From Planctomycetaceae bacterium (GTDB taxonomy: Bacteria; Planctomycetota; Planctomycetia; Pirellulales; Thermoguttaceae): 12,004 bases of DNA. This document shows positions 2,670-11,329 of this stretch, one piece after another. The stretch lies in assembly GCA_031283825.1 (NCBI GenBank), contig JAITAZ010000590.1, positions 1-12,004 on the forward strand. The letters run 5' to 3'. The translations under genes were made by a program, and so were the position numbers. The stretch's first letter is position 1, and every line of letters starts with the position of its first letter. The notes below the pieces were generated by a model. It was not told the origin of the DNA and made no database searches. It saw only the letters and a list, made by a program, of their open reading frames with translations.

Positions 2670-2966
2670 ATGAAGAAATTCACGTTGTTTACTACGTTGG
2701 CATTATTTTTGTCGGCGTGCGCGATAGGTTGCAGTACGGACGGAACGAATAGTTTTTGTCGAACGGGTTCGCTTTTTCCCGTACTACGATCAAATGTTAA
2801 AGACACGGTTTACACGTTAAAATATGGAAATCAAAACAACTGCGATCCATGCGAACCGGTTCAACCGTGTACTCCTTGCGAGCCGGTATGTAATCCATGC
2901 GATAACGTCAATTGTGTCAGTCCCATCGGTACTGTCGGCCCCGGCAGACCCACTTCAGGAGGCTGA
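2670..2966 (+). CDS. Small cysteine-rich predicted lipoprotein
   Basis: A 98-residue protein of unknown function. The first 21 residues form a lipoprotein-type signal: MKK, then a hydrophobic stretch and two possible lipobox cysteines, LSA-Cys17 and AIG-Cys21. The mature part has a Cys-Arg-Thr-Gly-Ser-Leu-Phe-Pro segment (residues 30-37). It then has a run of Pro-Cys and Cys-x2-Cys units between residues 58 and 82 (Cys58, 61, 67, 70, 74, 77, 82) and a Gly/Pro-rich tail. The Cys-Glu-Pro-Val and Cys-x-Pro-Cys repetition could bind metal or form disulfides in the envelope; this is inference. The start is well set: AGGAG at 2657-2661 lies 8 nt before the ATG. It is a single-gene unit, with an intrinsic terminator 165 bp after the stop. 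It resembles short lipoproteins I associate with Planctomycetota, but I cannot name a family. Confidence 0.8.
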   Translation: MKKFTLFTTLALFLSACAIGCSTDGTNSFCRTGSLFPVLRSNVKDTVYTLKYGNQNNCDPCEPVQPCTPCEPVCNPCDNVNCVSPIGTVGPGRPTSGG

Positions 2967-3385: not shown

Positions 3386-5005
3386 ATGGCAAAATTTATT
3401 TTTGTTACAGGCGGAGTCGTTAGCTCACTTGGTAAAGGTTTGACTTGCGCGTCAATCGGAATGCTGCTTGAACATCGCGGACTTAGCGTTCGTTTGCAGA
3501 AATTCGATCCTTATATCAATGTCAATCCGGGTCTGCTATCGCCGGCTCAACACGGAGAAGTTTACGTTCTCGACGACGGCTCAACAACCGATCTCGATCT
3601 CGGACACTACGAAAGATTCACAAACACAAAATTAACATGGTACAGCAGTTGGACTACCGGACAAATCTATCAACGAGTCTTTGAAAAAGAAAATCGCGGA
3701 GAATATCAAGGCGCAACTATTCAAGTAATTCCTCATATCACCGACGAAATTAAACATTGTATAAAACGTCTAGCAAGCTCTGATATCGACGTTGTCATTA
3801 CAGAAATCGGAGGAACTGTCGGCGATATCGAAAGTCTGCCTCACATGGAAGCAATTCGACAATTTGCTTTGGATGTCGGCAAAGAAAATTGTCTATATAT
3901 TCATCTCACACTGATTCCATTTCTCAAAGCCGCAAAAGAATTGAAAACAAAACCAACACAATACAGTGTCGGTCAATTGCGTCAAATCGGTATTCAACCT
4001 GATATTCTTATTTGTCGGACAGAAGTATCGTTATCGCAGGAAGAGCGGATGAAAATCGGCTTGTTTTGCAATATCGCAACCGACGCAGTAATAGAAGAGA
4101 AAGATAAAGATTTTTCTATCTACGAAGTTCCGCTGAGTCTAACCGAAAATAAATTAGACCAAATAATAGTTGACAAGTTGCATATTACTAAAGCCGCGCC
4201 GCTCGACCTCACTGACTGGCGGGAGTTGACGCGTAAACTTCGTAATCCGCAACACGAAATAACAGTTGCGGTTGTTGGAGAATTCGCAGGTTATAGAGAC
4301 GCTTACAAGTCAACTTATGAAGCGTTGGAACATGCCGGAGTTCAATGCAATACGCGAATCCGCATATTGTGGAAACCAAGCCGCGAAGTCCTATTACCGG
4401 ATACAAAATACGAGTTAAATAAAGTAAATGCTATTGTCGTTTCAGGAAGTTTTGGCGAATCTGAAATTGACGGCAAGATAGAATCGGTTCGTATTGCAAG
4501 AGAAAATAATATTCCGTTTCTTGGAATTGGTCTTGGGATGCAAGCGGCGATTATTGAATTTGCCCGAAACGTGATGTGTCTTGAGAATGCAAACTCTACC
4601 GAATACGATAAAGACTCGGCGAATCCTGTAATTTCTCTACTTGACGAGCGACGAACTTACATTCGAGACGGCGGAACGTTGAAAATCGGCGCGGACACGA
4701 CTGTATTTAAAGTCGGCAGTAAGATTTACGATGCGTATGATAAAAATCAGCTTGCTTACGAGCGATTTAGACATCGTTATGAGTTTAACAATCAATATCG
4801 CGAACAACTTGAACGCAGCGAGATGCAAATTACGGCAATGAGTCCGGACAGTTTATTAGTTCAGGGCGTGGAGTTATTGAATCATGATTGGTTTGTAGGA
4901 GTTCAGTATCACCCAGAATTTAAGTCTCAACCGACCAAACCTCATCCGTTGTTTCTAGCTCTAGTAAACGCCGCAATTAAAATGTCGAGTAAAAATAAAA
5001 ATTGA
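3386..5005 (+). CDS. pyrG: CTP synthase with substituted glutaminase nucleophile
   Basis: Converts UTP to CTP with ATP and a nitrogen donor, in the cytoplasm. Full length at 539 residues. The amidoligase domain (about 1-265) is conserved: [13 protein letters not shown] with P-loop Lys17, [46 protein letters not shown] and IGIQPDI. The class-I glutamine amidotransferase domain (about 285-530) is present, but the usual GICLGMQ reads GIGLGMQ. The nucleophilic Cys is therefore Gly382 (codon GGT, 4529-4531). The PGGFG oxyanion-hole loop reads SGSFG (353-357), and the Arg-Gly after it, tied to GTP activation in the family, is Ser359-Glu360. His509 and Glu511 of the triad remain in VGVQYHPEF. Inference: it cannot use glutamine and depends on free ammonia. 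The start codon begins the conserved [10 protein letters not shown]; the only ribosome-binding hint is GTGGA at 3373-3377. It stands alone between repeat clusters. Confidence 0.97.
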
Positions 5006-6493: not shown

Positions 6494-8080
6494 ATGAGTT
6501 TAGATTTAAGCACTTACGGTATTAAAGTAACAAACGTCCTTCGCAACGGCTCACCCGCCGTACTTTACGAAGACGGTATCCGCCAAAAAGATGCAGAAAT
6601 TTCATCTGCCGGCGCGCTAATCAATAAATCCGGCGAAAAAACCGGACGAAGCCCAAAAGATAAACGCGTAGAAAAAAGCCCCGAAAGCGAAAAAGATGTC
6701 TGGTGGGGATCAATCAATATCCCAATCACAAACGACGATTTCAACAAAAATAAATCTCGCGCTATCGAATTCCTTAACACTCGCGAAAAGCTCTACGTAG
6801 TTGACGCTTACGCCGGTTGGGATCAGGCAAACAGATTAAAAATCCGCGTCATTTGCTGCCGCCCGTATCACGCGCTTTTCATGCAAAATATGCTGATACG
6901 ACCAACCGCCGAAGAATTAAAGTCTTTCGGTAACCCCGATTACGTAATTTTCAACGCCGGTCAACAACAAGCCGACCCGTCGCTCGAATCGGTTAAAAGC
7001 AAAACCTGCGTAGCGTTATCATTTGAAAAAGGCGAATTCGTAATTCTCGGTACAGAATACGCCGGAGAAATGAAAAAAGGCGTGTTCACGATAATGAATT
7101 ATCTCATGCCGAAAAAAGGATTTCCGTCAATGCACTGCTCGGCAAACGAAGGAAAAGACGGCGACGTTTCACTGTTTTTCGGACTTTCCGGCACTGGAAA
7201 AACAACCCTTTCAACCGAACCGAATCGTAAACTAATCGGAGACGACGAACATTACTGGACAAACGACGGAATCGCTAATATTGAAGGCGGTTGCTACGCG
7301 AAATGTATCAATCTTTCACCGAAAAATGAACCTGAAATTTTCAATGCAATTCGATTCGGCACGGTACTTGAAAATGTTGGTTATTGTCCGACGACTCGTG
7401 AAGTCGATTTTGCCGACCAGTCGATAACCGAAAATACTCGCGCTTCGTATCCGATTGAATTTATTGACAATAGAAAAACGCCGTGTGTTGGAGGTCATCC
7501 GAAAAATGTGATTTTCCTTTCTTGCGACGCTTTTGGCGTCTTGCCGCCGGTGAGCGAATTAACGCCCGAACAAGCGATGTATCATTACATTAGCGGTTAC
7601 ACGGCGAAGGTTGCGGGAACGGAACAAGGCGTAACTGAACCAGAGGCGACATTTTCCGCATGTTTTGGCGGACCGTTTTTGGTTTGGCATCCGTCGAAGT
7701 ATGCCGAGTTGCTTGCGGCGTATTTGAAAAAGCATGGCGTAAAGGTCTGGCTAGTCAATACCGGTTGGAGCGGAGGAGGTTACGGAGTCGGAAGCAGACT
7801 TTCGATAAAATACACCAGAGCGATAATCGACGGAATCCACAGCGGCGAACTTGCAAAATCGGCAAAAGAGAAAGACCCAGTTTTCGGACTTTCGATTCCG
7901 AAATCATGTCCAAATGTTCCGGCGGAAATTCTTAATCCGAAAAATGTCTGGAAAGACAAAGACGCTTACGACAAAAAAGCATTGCACTTAGCCGGATTAT
8001 TCAAAAAGAACTTCGAAAAATTCGCCGCAAATTCCTCACAAGAAATAATCAACGCCGGTCCATTAAAATTCAGCGAATAG
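6494..8080 (+). CDS. pckA: ATP-dependent phosphoenolpyruvate carboxykinase
   Basis: Interconverts oxaloacetate plus ATP with phosphoenolpyruvate, CO2 and ADP in the cytoplasm. It serves gluconeogenesis or, in many anaerobes, CO2 fixation toward succinate; the direction cannot be read from sequence. At 528 residues it is close to the usual ~540. Seen: GEKTGRSPKDK with substrate-binding Arg52, the EYAGEMKKG metal-site lysines, the SMHCSAN histidine, P-loop GLSGTGKT at 230-237, kinase-2 LIGDDEH with Asp250 and Asp251, EGGCYAK, ENTRASYPI, GYTAKVAGTE and NTGWSGGGYGVG near the nucleotide site. All key motifs are intact, so it should be active. GTP-type PEPCK is excluded by the overall sequence. The start has AGGAG at 6483-6487, 6 nt before the ATG. 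Third codon positions turn G/T-rich from about 7340 to 7780 and A/C-rich on either side. A strong hairpin follows the stop. Confidence 0.97.
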   Translation: MSLDLSTYGIKVTNVLRNGSPAVLYEDGIRQKDAEISSAGALINKSGEKTGRSPKDKRVEKSPESEKDVWWGSINIPITNDDFNKNKSRAIEFLNTREKLYVVDAYAGWDQANRLKIRVICCRPYHALFMQNMLIRPTAEELKSFGNPDYVIFNAGQQQADPSLESVKSKTCVALSFEKGEFVILGTEYAGEMKKGVFTIMNYLMPKKGFPSMHCSANEGKDGDVSLFFGLSGTGKTTLSTEPNRKLIGDDEHYWTNDGIANIEGGCYAKCINLSPKNEPEIFNAIRFGTVLENVGYCPTTREVDFADQSITENTRASYPIEFIDNRKTPCVGGHPKNVIFLSCDAFGVLPPVSELTPEQAMYHYISGYTAKVAGTEQGVTEPEATFSACFGGPFLVWHPSKYAELLAAYLKKHGVKVWLVNTGWSGGGYGVGSRLSIKYTRAIIDGIHSGELAKSAKEKDPVFGLSIPKSCPNVPAEILNPKNVWKDKDAYDKKALHLAGLFKKNFEKFAANSSQEIINAGPLKFSE

Positions 8081-8454: not shown

Positions 8455-8613
8455 TTCACCCTATTTGTAAATTGACGAGTTTGAATTTCGATTAAAACGT
8501 TTCTATCAAAATCGAATTTCTACTAAAAAACGAACTCTGAATTAAAAACTCAACTTACAAAATTAACCTTGTGTTCGATTCAACTTTACCATCAACAGGA
8601 ATCAAAAAATATC

Positions 8614-10836
8614 ATGATCAAAAAACTTGAGATCATTTACATCGTTCCATCTCGATATGACGACGACGGATACGTTCAACGTTGGACTTGGGGAGTCGTT
8701 CCGTCTAATTCGCTGGCAGTTCTTAAAAGTCTCGCGCGAGATATGATCGATAAGAAACCTTTGCCCAATGTCGAAATCTCTTTGGAATCCTACGACGACA
8801 ATGTCCAAAAAATTCCATTCGACAAAATCGCGCGTCAAAATATTGATCCTGAAACCAAAGTTGTCGTTGGTATAGTCGGCGTTCAATCTAATCAATTTCC
8901 TCGCGCGTCTGATATTGCTATGCGATTTCGTAAACTTGGAGTCGATGTGCTAATCGGAGGCTTTCACGTTACCGGAGTAATCGCATTGTTCGATAAACTC
9001 ACGCCCGAATTGCAATCGCTTGTTGATAACGGAGTCTCGCTTATTGCGGGAGAAGCCGAAACTCCCGGCTCGATGGAAAAAATATTCGACGACGTAATCA
9101 ATAACAATTTGCAACCGGTTTATCGTCTGCCCAAAGCGCCAGACTTGACAAACGCACCGCTGCCAAAAGCAGACCCGAAATATATCGACCACTTCGGCGC
9201 AAAATGGGCAACTATCGATTCCTCGCGCGGATGTCCTTTTGGTTGTACATTCTGCACGGTGATAAATATTCAGGGTAGAAAAATGAGATGCCGTTCTTCC
9301 GACGCGGTTATCGAAACGGTCAAAGAAAATTGCAAAAACGGTATTCCGAATTTTTTCTTCACCGACGATAATTTCGCCCGTTCCGCACACTGGGAAACGA
9401 TTTTCGACGCACTCACAGAAATGAGAGAAAACGGAAGTCCCGTAAATTTCATGATGCAAATAGACACTCAATCGAGCAAAATTCCGAACTTTGTAGATAA
9501 GGCGGTTAAAGCTGGTTGTCGGATGGTTTTTATCGGGATGGAAAGCGTGAATCCTGAGAATATCGCCGAAGCTGGAAAGACGCAAAACAAGGTTGAGCAA
9601 TATCAGTCGATGGTTCAAACGTGGCAGAAGTCTGGGGTGATTGTTCATGTCGGTTATATTATTGGTTTCCCGAAAGACACTATTGAATCGGTGAAACGCG
9701 ACGTGTTGTTTTTACGTGATCATGTCGGCGTTGATTTAGCGTCGTTTTTTATGTTGACGCCGTTGCCCGGTTCGGTTGATCATTTTGAGATGGTCAAGCG
9801 CGGCGATGCGATTGATCCTGATTTGAATAAGTATGATTCTTTTCACGAAACGTTTGTTCATTCGTCGATGAATCCTGGCGAGTGGATGGCGGCGACTAAA
9901 ACTGCTTACAGTGTATTTTATTCAAAAGAGCATTGTACAAAGATTCTCAAGCGATTGCCGAAAGACCATTACTGGCTTATGTTTTGGAATTTAATTTGGT
10001 ATCGATATTCGGGTGTGTTGTCGGGAACGCATCCGATGATGACGGGTTTTTTCCGTTGCAAGGATAGGCTCGACAGACGACCTGGTATGCCGCGAGAAAA
10101 TATGTTTAGTTTTGCGTGGAGACGTATAAAAGATTTTGTGTTGGACAGTGGGTCGTATATTAAATTATTTTTTGAATTTCAGGAGATATGGTTTTTGACT
10201 CGGCGTAGTGCGATTGTGCATGAAAAGATTGACAGTTTAGTTGCGTCGAGCGACGATGTCGTGGTAGATGATAAAGTTGATAATGCGATATTGGGGTTGT
10301 CTCGAACTCGTGCGATGCGTCGTTTGATTCGGATTCGTCATTGGGCGCCTCTTGCTCGTTTGAAGTCGTGTTGGAATTCGTTGCAGCAGCGTCTTGCGGA
10401 GTACAATTGGAAGGGTCAATATGATGCGGCGGTTCAGGAGTTGAAGAATCAGTTAAGGGCGACGGCGGAAAGTTTACGTTTGATGGCGTCGTTGATTCGG
10501 CAGGAGAGGAGTAAAGCCAAAGCGTTAGAGGGTGTAGCTTTTGAGATTGACAACTATATCAATCAAATTGATTCTGAACCTGCCAACTCTACTACGTTAT
10601 ATAAAATGCAGCAATTTGTAGGCGAAAAATTGTTAGCAAGATATGAGGAAATGTCGAGCAGTTGCGTAAGATTAAGACGATATGCGAATCGTTTGAGAGC
10701 CAACGCCATTGGCAATTTCCGACAAGGCAAAATAATAAATTCCGGCGTAGAGTTCGTCAGAAGAGCATGGGTTCTACCAGTTGACGCCTTCCTATCATTC
10801 AGATTCTTCCTAGCCGTTTTCAGAAAAGAACTCTAA
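8614..10836 (+). CDS. B12-binding-type radical SAM protein, long C-terminal extension
   Basis: A 740-residue putative cobalamin-dependent radical SAM enzyme; substrate unknown. Residues about 1-190 resemble the B12-binding domain found before many radical SAM cores, with GIVGVQSNQFP and GGFHVTG (115-121). The core (about 195-420) has the cluster motif Cys207-x3-Cys211-x2-Cys214 (CPFGCTFC), then FFFTDDNF, VFIGMESVNPE, VGYIIGFPKDT and the MLTPLPGS region. These are typical of the BchE/HpnP-like class, whose members methylate or cyclise unactivated carbons in lipids, pigments or antibiotics. From about residue 430 a long helical, Arg- and aromatic-rich region follows that I do not recognise; it may bind a membrane or partner. 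The ATG at 8614 is preferred over an in-frame TTG at 8569 because the conserved N-terminus starts there. AGGA at 8597-8600 is 13 nt upstream, a loose fit. No partner gene lies beside it. Confidence 0.88.
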   Translation: MIKKLEIIYIVPSRYDDDGYVQRWTWGVVPSNSLAVLKSLARDMIDKKPLPNVEISLESYDDNVQKIPFDKIARQNIDPETKVVVGIVGVQSNQFPRASDIAMRFRKLGVDVLIGGFHVTGVIALFDKLTPELQSLVDNGVSLIAGEAETPGSMEKIFDDVINNNLQPVYRLPKAPDLTNAPLPKADPKYIDHFGAKWATIDSSRGCPFGCTFCTVINIQGRKMRCRSSDAVIETVKENCKNGIPNFFFTDDNFARSAHWETIFDALTEMRENGSPVNFMMQIDTQSSKIPNFVDKAVKAGCRMVFIGMESVNPENIAEAGKTQNKVEQYQSMVQTWQKSGVIVHVGYIIGFPKDTIESVKRDVLFLRDHVGVDLASFFMLTPLPGSVDHFEMVKRGDAIDPDLNKYDSFHETFVHSSMNPGEWMAATKTAYSVFYSKEHCTKILKRLPKDHYWLMFWNLIWYRYSGVLSGTHPMMTGFFRCKDRLDRRPGMPRENMFSFAWRRIKDFVLDSGSYIKLFFEFQEIWFLTRRSAIVHEKIDSLVASSDDVVVDDKVDNAILGLSRTRAMRRLIRIRHWAPLARLKSCWNSLQQRLAEYNWKGQYDAAVQELKNQLRATAESLRLMASLIRQERSKAKALEGVAFEIDNYINQIDSEPANSTTLYKMQQFVGEKLLARYEEMSSSCVRLRRYANRLRANAIGNFRQGKIINSGVEFVRRAWVLPVDAFLSFRFFLAVFRKEL

Positions 10837-11146: not shown

Positions 11147-11329
11147 TTAAAAAATAAACCTAATATCTGTACAAAAATTAAATGAATGATTAGGAATATC
11201 AATATCGCTATTTTCCCTGTTTTCCCCTCTAGCATAAGATCCAAATAATACTATTCTTTCGGGAGAGATTCTTGAAGTAATAAATGTAACAATCTGCTCC
11301 ATGATAGGTAAATTTTGATTCATAGACAT
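11147..11329 (-). pseudogene. Truncated MNT-type nucleotidyltransferase domain
   Basis: A 60-residue frame. Its first ~45 residues match the start of a minimal nucleotidyltransferase (the MntA-like antitoxin of HEPN-MNT pairs): an N-terminal helix, then RIVLFGSYARGENRENSDIDI. The GSxARG and SDID motifs (residues 31-36 and 41-44) are intact, including the two Asp that bind metal. Directly after SDIDI the frame runs into unrelated sequence and stops. The rest of the domain, including the third catalytic Asp strand, is missing, and I could not find it in the next frames. The break abuts an AT-rich hairpin at 11104-11134. No HEPN partner is visible. There is no clear Shine-Dalgarno upstream. Most likely a dead remnant of a toxin-antitoxin locus. 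Confidence 0.7.

Follow-up and report, generated by a model that had tools for sequence, protein, structure and literature searches.

What does a CTP synthase do once its glutaminase has lost the nucleophile? Textbooks describe CTP synthase as dependent on glutamine, along with GMP synthetase and carbamoyl phosphate synthetase, and the 12,004-nt stretch of Planctomycetaceae DNA analyzed here (the window) raises this question, as it encodes a 539-aa protein that has the two-domain PyrG architecture (PF06418, 392 bits; PF00117, 107 bits) and Gly at the position of the catalytic Cys. The features of the gene are as follows.

3386..5005, + strand: pyrG-like gene for a glutaminase-dead CTP synthase of 539 aa, open reading frame from ATG to TGA
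3386..4180, + strand: amidoligase (synthase) domain, residues 1–265, invariant charged ligand-contact residues retained
3533..3535, + strand: Leu50 for E. coli Thr51 (GTP pocket), from the alignment, role as described in PMC9138612
3584..3586, + strand: Thr67 for E. coli Glu68 (GTP purine contact), from the alignment, role as described in PMC9138612
3707..3709, + strand: Gln108 for E. coli Leu109 (L4 loop, GTP coupling), from the alignment
4253..5002, + strand: class-I glutamine amidotransferase (GAT) domain, residues 290–539, folded in the model, nucleophile missing
4280..4282, + strand: Glu299 for E. coli Lys297, Glu in 72/72 clade members
4442..4465, + strand: SGSFGESE, in which the oxyanion loop and the L11 lid (PGGFGxRG in the family) are altered
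4529..4531, + strand: Gly382 (GGT) at the position of nucleophilic Cys379, inside GIGLGMQ (4523–4543)
4682..4684, + strand: Lys433 for E. coli Arg440 (GTP activation), from the alignment
4766..4768, + strand: Phe461 for invariant His467, Phe in 72/72 clade members
4910..4918, + strand: His509 (4910–4912) and Glu511 (4916–4918), the rest of the triad

Residue losses in the glutaminase and the GTP site

Compared with glutamine-dependent E. coli PyrG (PDB 1S1M; TIGR00337), the window protein has the same two domains, 47% identity and a closely similar fold (TM 0.92–0.93), and it shares the invariant synthase ligand residues, but it lacks the nucleophilic Cys and the GTP contacts, and its oxyanion loop and lid are altered. 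Reading the codons and aligning the two proteins bore out the original prediction, which had reported a GGT-encoded Gly at 4529–4531, an oxyanion loop reading SGSFG and Ser-Glu in place of the Arg-Gly that follows it. Specifically, relative to E. coli, C379 is G, P350 is S, G352 is S, R356 is S and G357 is E, so that SGSFGESE takes the place of both the PGGFG oxyanion loop and the Arg-Gly of the GTP lid. The persistence of His509 and Glu511, also reported earlier, was evident in the same alignment, in which they correspond to H515 and E517, leaving a Cys-His-Glu triad that is incomplete at the Cys position. The GTP-contact residues T51, E68, R356 and R440 are L, T, S and K, which means that GTP contacts are lost in both domains, and altogether the equivalents of C379, R356, G357, L109, T51, E68, K297, R440 and H467 are replaced.

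On the synthase side, the tunnel-gate residues P54, H57 and V60 are present as P53, H56 and V59, and the invariant P-loop, Mg, ATP, UTP and CTP contact residues are all retained, by comparison with the ligand contacts of the E. coli structures. The AlphaFold model has a mean pLDDT of 86 and a TM score of 0.93 to E. coli CTP synthase, and only residues 45–56 and 423–429 fall below a pLDDT of 50. The standard NCBIfam model TIGR00337 labels the protein glutamine hydrolysing (690 bits, cut-off 462.75), a label that would misdirect metabolic models. Among the papers that our literature searches listed, we found no report of a natural glutaminase-dead CTP synthase.

The cysteine loss is old and clade-wide

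The window comes from a fragmented bin that is 73% complete, and a faulty assembly or a misread Cys codon could produce an apparent loss of this kind. We rejected this explanation, which we regard as scarcely credible, since Gly at the same site and an altered lid recur at 16 loci of separate genomes in the genus (L003–L018), that is, in 16/16 further orthologues. The original prediction had taken relatives with an intact Cys as a pointer to such an error; relatives of this kind do exist, but they are paralogues, and the orthologues L003–L018 all have Gly. In a scan for a wider spread through the phylum, a DNA pattern that matched GI[x]LGMQ-like sequences with a codon not beginning with T hit only the window's genome among 392, a weak indication given how narrow the pattern is.

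Among the best 120 homologues listed, the Cys is absent in 64 (P0001–P0061, P0063, P0068 and P0070), where it is replaced by Gly (49), Thr (5), Ser (4), Asp (3), Asn (2) or Ala (1), and present in 56. C379 is found in 80/80 relatives from named genomes (the best 80 of 592), which were chosen regardless of this residue. In a tree of 110 rows built from synthase-domain columns, a single clade (SH-aLRT 100) comprises 37 sampled rows, of which 0/37 have Cys, and in a second tree of 58 rows, built without the GTP-site columns, the 17 sampled rows of the dead clade are supported at 100/98. Because all 37 sampled rows of this well-supported clade lack Cys, we conclude that the replacement is old and real. 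For residue counts we used a larger set of 72 clade rows (71 different sequences), which was chosen partly by motif, so that its 0/72 with Cys is not independent, whereas the 37-row tree clade and the 64/120 homologue count are. The earlier suggestion that the loss might be recent was not borne out, given that it is clade-wide and that His515 and Glu517 are themselves replaced in 43/72 and 11/72 clade members, respectively.

Most genus genomes also carry an intact PyrG

Searching 21 genomes of the window's genus, we found a dead and an intact PyrG together in 15, the dead copy only in three (the window's own genome G000, G001 and G013), an intact copy only in two and neither in one. A second pyrG, which had been proposed as something to look for in the window's genome, is thus an intact paralogue in 15/21 genomes, and G000 itself shows the dead copy only; its 73% complete bin may simply be missing the intact one. 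The intact genus copies are 57–60% identical to the window protein, that of G005 being of a 49% type, and all 17 that were found retain Cys, His, Glu and PGGFGDRG. An organism whose CTP supply hinges on ammonia or on some other glutaminase, as first envisaged, is at odds with an intact PyrG standing beside the dead one in this many genomes. For the same reason the window species is probably not ammonia-limited, and its organism is probably not ammonia-only for CTP.

Nor has the genus made a general shift to ammonia, since CarA is present in 19/21 genomes and GMP synthetase in 18/21, with frames of at least 520 aa in 17/18; CarA and full-length GuaA occur together in G000, G008, G017 and G018. 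Within the genus, the ammonia-type form appears, as far as tested, to be limited to CTP synthesis. We also considered and rejected a general loss of class-I glutaminases in G000, where the TrpG-like protein, CarA and GuaA each have their Cys. CarB was not found in G000, which may be due to the incomplete bin.

For the gene neighborhood, we compared the LysA-like, PEPCK and radical-SAM genes of the window with the dead-pyrG stretches of 10 relatives (whole contigs or long stretches of 7.5–16.9 kb, one of 17.8 kb). None of these neighbors occurred there in 10/10 relatives, and no conserved gene neighbor pointing to ammonia was found. The PEPCK gene occupies window positions 6494–8080 and follows the dead pyrG at a distance of about 1.5 kb; in G020 (L358) its 92% identical counterpart is found on the intact-pyrG stretch, 1.7 kb past that gene (1/5 intact stretches), and not on the dead-pyrG stretch.

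The synthase domain is conserved and the GAT domain relaxed

We defined 153 columns that are at least 97% invariant on 146 canonical rows, of which 66, from outside the named genomes, are the remainder once broken ones had been removed; 98 of these columns lie in the synthase part and 55 in the rest. Of the invariant cells, the 72 dead-clade rows retain 94.9% for the synthase part but 74.5% elsewhere, and the 16 intact paralogue rows (15 from the genus and one from G139) retain 99.2% and 99.9%. K40, D72, E140, D147, E149, K187, Q192 and K223 are kept in 72/72 clade rows and K18 in all 67 rows long enough to show it, R211 is Gln in 1/72, and the losses that do occur in the synthase part include the GTP-pocket residues T51 and E68. 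Two changes speak against reading the clade as ammonia-fed synthases: the tunnel-gate residue His57, invariant in the 146 canonical rows, is Arg in 23/72 members (e.g. L017, P0022 and P0036), not including the window, and D303 is Glu or Ala in 13/72.

Rates of change separate the two domains in the same way. In 12 genomes with both copies, mean synthase divergence is equal for the dead and the intact PyrG (0.131 vs 0.131), whereas GAT divergence is 0.317 for the dead copy and 0.219 for the intact one; of 66 pairs, which share genomes, 63 have a higher GAT/N ratio in the dead PyrG. These are 12 of the 15 two-copy genomes, with G009 and G012 omitted as partial and G005 omitted as its intact copy is of the other type. 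For 12 close pairs, omega is 0.02–0.05 in the synthase domain of either copy, and in the GAT domain it is 0.04–0.16 for the dead copy (computable in 9/12) and 0.04–0.12 for the intact copy (10/12), with dS saturated in many pairs and one pair running the opposite way. The dead pyrG is maintained by selection, which has slackened over its GAT domain without being lifted; since that domain is still under purifying selection, with an omega that overlaps that of the intact copy, we conclude that it retains some role. Residue conservation and rate comparison thus both agree with the earlier proposal that the synthase would stay under selection while the glutaminase and its GTP lid were released, and both point to the ammonia-using enzyme that it had envisaged.

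Published work bears on several of the replaced positions. The review PMC9138612 describes a GTP pocket lined by Thr51 and Glu68, an external NH3 entry that is occluded by GTP, and an L109A variant that retains NH3 activity and loses glutamine coupling. According to its Table 1, NH3-dependent kcat or specific activity shifts by no more than about 1.3-fold upon changes at L109, R356 and G352 or with G357A, while R356P raises Km 1.7-fold, R440M halves kcat and G357P cuts kcat 3.5-fold; Glu at position 357 is absent from the table.

Two other fates of the gene can be weighed against these data. A redundant duplicate in decay would be expected in a genus where most genomes have an intact copy, and the GAT domain does diverge faster, but L002–L018 all have full frames of 533–550 aa, the synthase-domain omega is low and the Cys-less form is broadly distributed among the best homologues listed, all of which makes decay very improbable. 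Repurposing of the amidoligase for another nucleotide or amine would fit a paralogue that is only 57–60% identical to the intact genus copies and whose GAT domain has been freed; nevertheless, the invariant UTP, CTP and ATP contacts examined are unchanged in the window, and we consider this improbable, if somewhat less so than decay. An ammonia-specific CTP synthase remains the reading that we prefer.

PyrG glutaminase has changed repeatedly across the family

Of 119 family genomes searched, 111 had a PyrG match, and we read the triads as far as the contigs extend. The window's dead clade also contains a copy from G139 (genus g63), and elsewhere the triad is broken in other ways. In genus g60, G123 and G125–G128 have Gly or Ala for Cys plus a second, intact PyrG, and G124 and G129 have Gln for Glu. 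In g59, the Cys is retained but His is Leu and Glu is Gln (G103, G104, G109, G110 and G111), and Leu-Gln is also seen in G106 on a fragment that covers the end of PyrG only; among the 45 homologues closest to the G110 protein, 44 are of this type and the remaining one ends before these residues. In g9, the Cys of G137 is Ser. On the tree, the PyrG glutaminase needs five state changes, and the starred branches force at least four, counts that do not separate loss from regain. The lid residue G357 is altered in 4/5 lineages and the pocket residue T51 likewise in 4/5.

As a separate observation, intact pyrG adjoins guaA in G005, G123 and G125–G128, and so does the single intact pyrG of G141 (loci L049, L159, L161, L164, L166, L168 and L170). 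The pyrG beside guaA in G005 and g60 is 46–48% identical and apparently of foreign type, and the adjacency suggests that the two genes were transferred together.

CarA and the GMP synthetase glutaminase were not found where PyrG is seen only in broken form

Nine genomes outside the window's genus, from the three genera g59, g60 and g9, have a broken PyrG and no other among the copies detected (G103, G104, G106, G109, G110, G111, G124, G129 and G137). Class-I GATase searches of these genomes found CarA in none of the nine, nor a separate GMP synthetase glutaminase, absences that weigh less for G137 (77% complete), G106 (PyrG end only) and G129 (GMP synthetase cut by a contig end). Including the three dead-only genomes of the window's genus, CarA is present in 2/12 broken-only genomes vs 85/96 with intact PyrG (Fisher p=4.8e-7, with kinship ignored and three partial genomes and 8 family genomes without a PyrG match omitted). 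The coupling of PyrG and CarA is not strict, because 11/96 genomes with intact PyrG also have no CarA, and G116 has an intact PyrG, no CarA and a single 424-aa GMP synthetase frame. CarB is present in 8/8 broken-only genomes tested, and these eight proteins form a single clade (100/100, with a long-branch warning) together with the additional CarB that G105, G113 and G119 encode on a different contig from carA.

The GMP synthetase matches of the nine genomes fall in open frames of 303–326 aa, with an additional 25-aa fragment in G106. An in-frame stop stands just before the ATPPase domain in 7/7 readable cases (G103, G104, G109, G110, G111, G124 and G137), leaving a GMP synthetase without a glutaminase domain in each. 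The short enzymes of g9, g59 and g60 form one clade (99/95). Some genomes with intact PyrG (for example G105, G113, G119, G123 and G125) carry CarA and a full GuaA together with a short GMP synthetase. We also noticed a second, separate clade of GATase-less GMP synthetases (L246, L247 and L248, from G113, G105 and G119, respectively), and these three genomes have their full GuaA alongside this second type.

We read the broken-only genomes as having shifted nucleotide synthesis, in what would be a coordinated change, away from glutamine and onto ammonia. They also bear on whether the dead PyrG acts by itself. CTP synthases assemble into tetramers and filaments, and a protein that stands beside intact PyrG in 15/21 genus genomes, with a GAT domain retained and folded in the AlphaFold model, might be a pseudo-enzyme partner that tunes intact PyrG in mixed assemblies. 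We consider this unlikely, as the invariant synthase ligand residues are retained, a synthase omega of about 0.02–0.05 in close pairs is tighter than a regulatory partner requires, and in eight of the nine genomes, G106 with its fragment aside, no PyrG other than the broken one was detected. Barring cytidine salvage, such sole copies suggest that broken PyrGs can carry CTP synthesis alone.

Ammonia might instead be fed to the dead PyrG in trans by a free glutaminase. There are only two or three class-I GATase matches per genome among the nine, namely PyrG and frames that we take to be HisH- or TrpG-like from the motifs in sequences read for G110, G124 and G137, with a PF07722-like frame in 8/9, which in G110 lacks the Cys. 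Although CTP synthases do possess an NH3 entry path (PMC9138612), supply in trans seems, on this class-I search, distinctly improbable, about on a par with repurposing or marginally ahead of it. Apart from this, a second Cys-less amidotransferase-like family, PF00117/PF07722-like, has Gly at the expected Cys in four genomes of three genera (G000:C83:740-1153, L222; G017, L221; G110, L210; G123, L224), with the motifs AIGTGMQ, AIGVGMQ and GIGAGMQ.

A predicted ammonia-fed CTP synthase

With a probability of roughly three in four, judged from the sequence comparisons above, we propose that the PyrG of the window is a CTP synthase isozyme specific for ammonia, and an instance of a switch from glutamine to ammonia that nucleotide amidotransferases of this family have made repeatedly. 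The synthase domain would phosphorylate UTP with ATP, and free NH3 would then attack, as in every CTP synthase. Instead of being released from glutamine, the NH3 would enter from the solvent by way of the vestibule that lies at the bottom of what was the GTP cleft; because GTP otherwise occludes this entry, loss of the GTP contacts would leave it open. With the Cys, lid, oxyanion loop and GTP contacts all changed, glutamine hydrolysis and GTP activation would both be gone, and the retained CTP feedback residues would keep the enzyme open to CTP feedback. In the genus, the dead PyrG would work beside an intact, glutamine-fed PyrG, a division of labor that may be likened to AsnA and AsnB, the paired ammonia and glutamine asparagine synthetases. 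Direct ammonia use would spare the ATP of glutamine synthesis.

On a broader scale, the family may have rebuilt its nucleotide nitrogen supply repeatedly, with some lineages making CTP, GMP and carbamoyl phosphate from ammonia (glutaminase-dead PyrG, GATase-less GMP synthetase and CarB without CarA) and others, including the window's genus, keeping a switchable pair of ammonia and glutamine CTP synthases after taking in a foreign intact pyrG; we hold the case for and against this scenario to be evenly balanced.

The closest parallel is the CPS I of terrestrial vertebrates, which lacks the class-I glutaminase Cys and uses free ammonia (PMC7657897), although it is a different enzyme from a different kingdom and the corresponding activity of the window protein is predicted. 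CPS I requires N-acetylglutamate (PMC4655335), whereas the window PyrG would have lost GTP control with no known substitute. Type N NAD synthetases of bacteria and archaea resemble it as amidoligases that work on free ammonia without a glutaminase (PMC3376133), but there the glutaminase domain is absent and the state is common (Table 1 of that survey puts it at 44% across 886 genomes), whereas the window PyrG retains a dead domain. The same table gives glutaminase fusion as 100% for pyrG (800 genomes) and guaA (730 genomes), and carAB without a glutaminase in none of 600 genomes. In the two-subunit archaeal GMP synthetase, the separate ATPPase protein can take external ammonia, as described in PMC10526850; unlike that system, no partner GATase was found to accompany the short GMP synthetases in the broken-only genomes. 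A lineage in which all three textbook enzymes seem glutaminase-free would offer natural ammonia-only enzymes for studying the NH3 tunnel and GTP allostery, and makes it testable when cells give up glutamine as a nitrogen carrier.

Other frames in the window

Three further frames were noted in the window. A 98-aa frame at 2670–2966 (+ strand) has a lipoprotein-like start and a Cys-rich tail. A short 60-aa frame at 11147–11329 (− strand) ends early and looks like the start of a minimal nucleotidyltransferase, judged by the motif GSYARGENRENSDID. The frame at 8569–10836 (+ strand) encodes a 755-aa radical SAM protein that scores under all named NCBIfam cut-offs, and its translation may in fact begin at an ATG downstream of the listed TTG.
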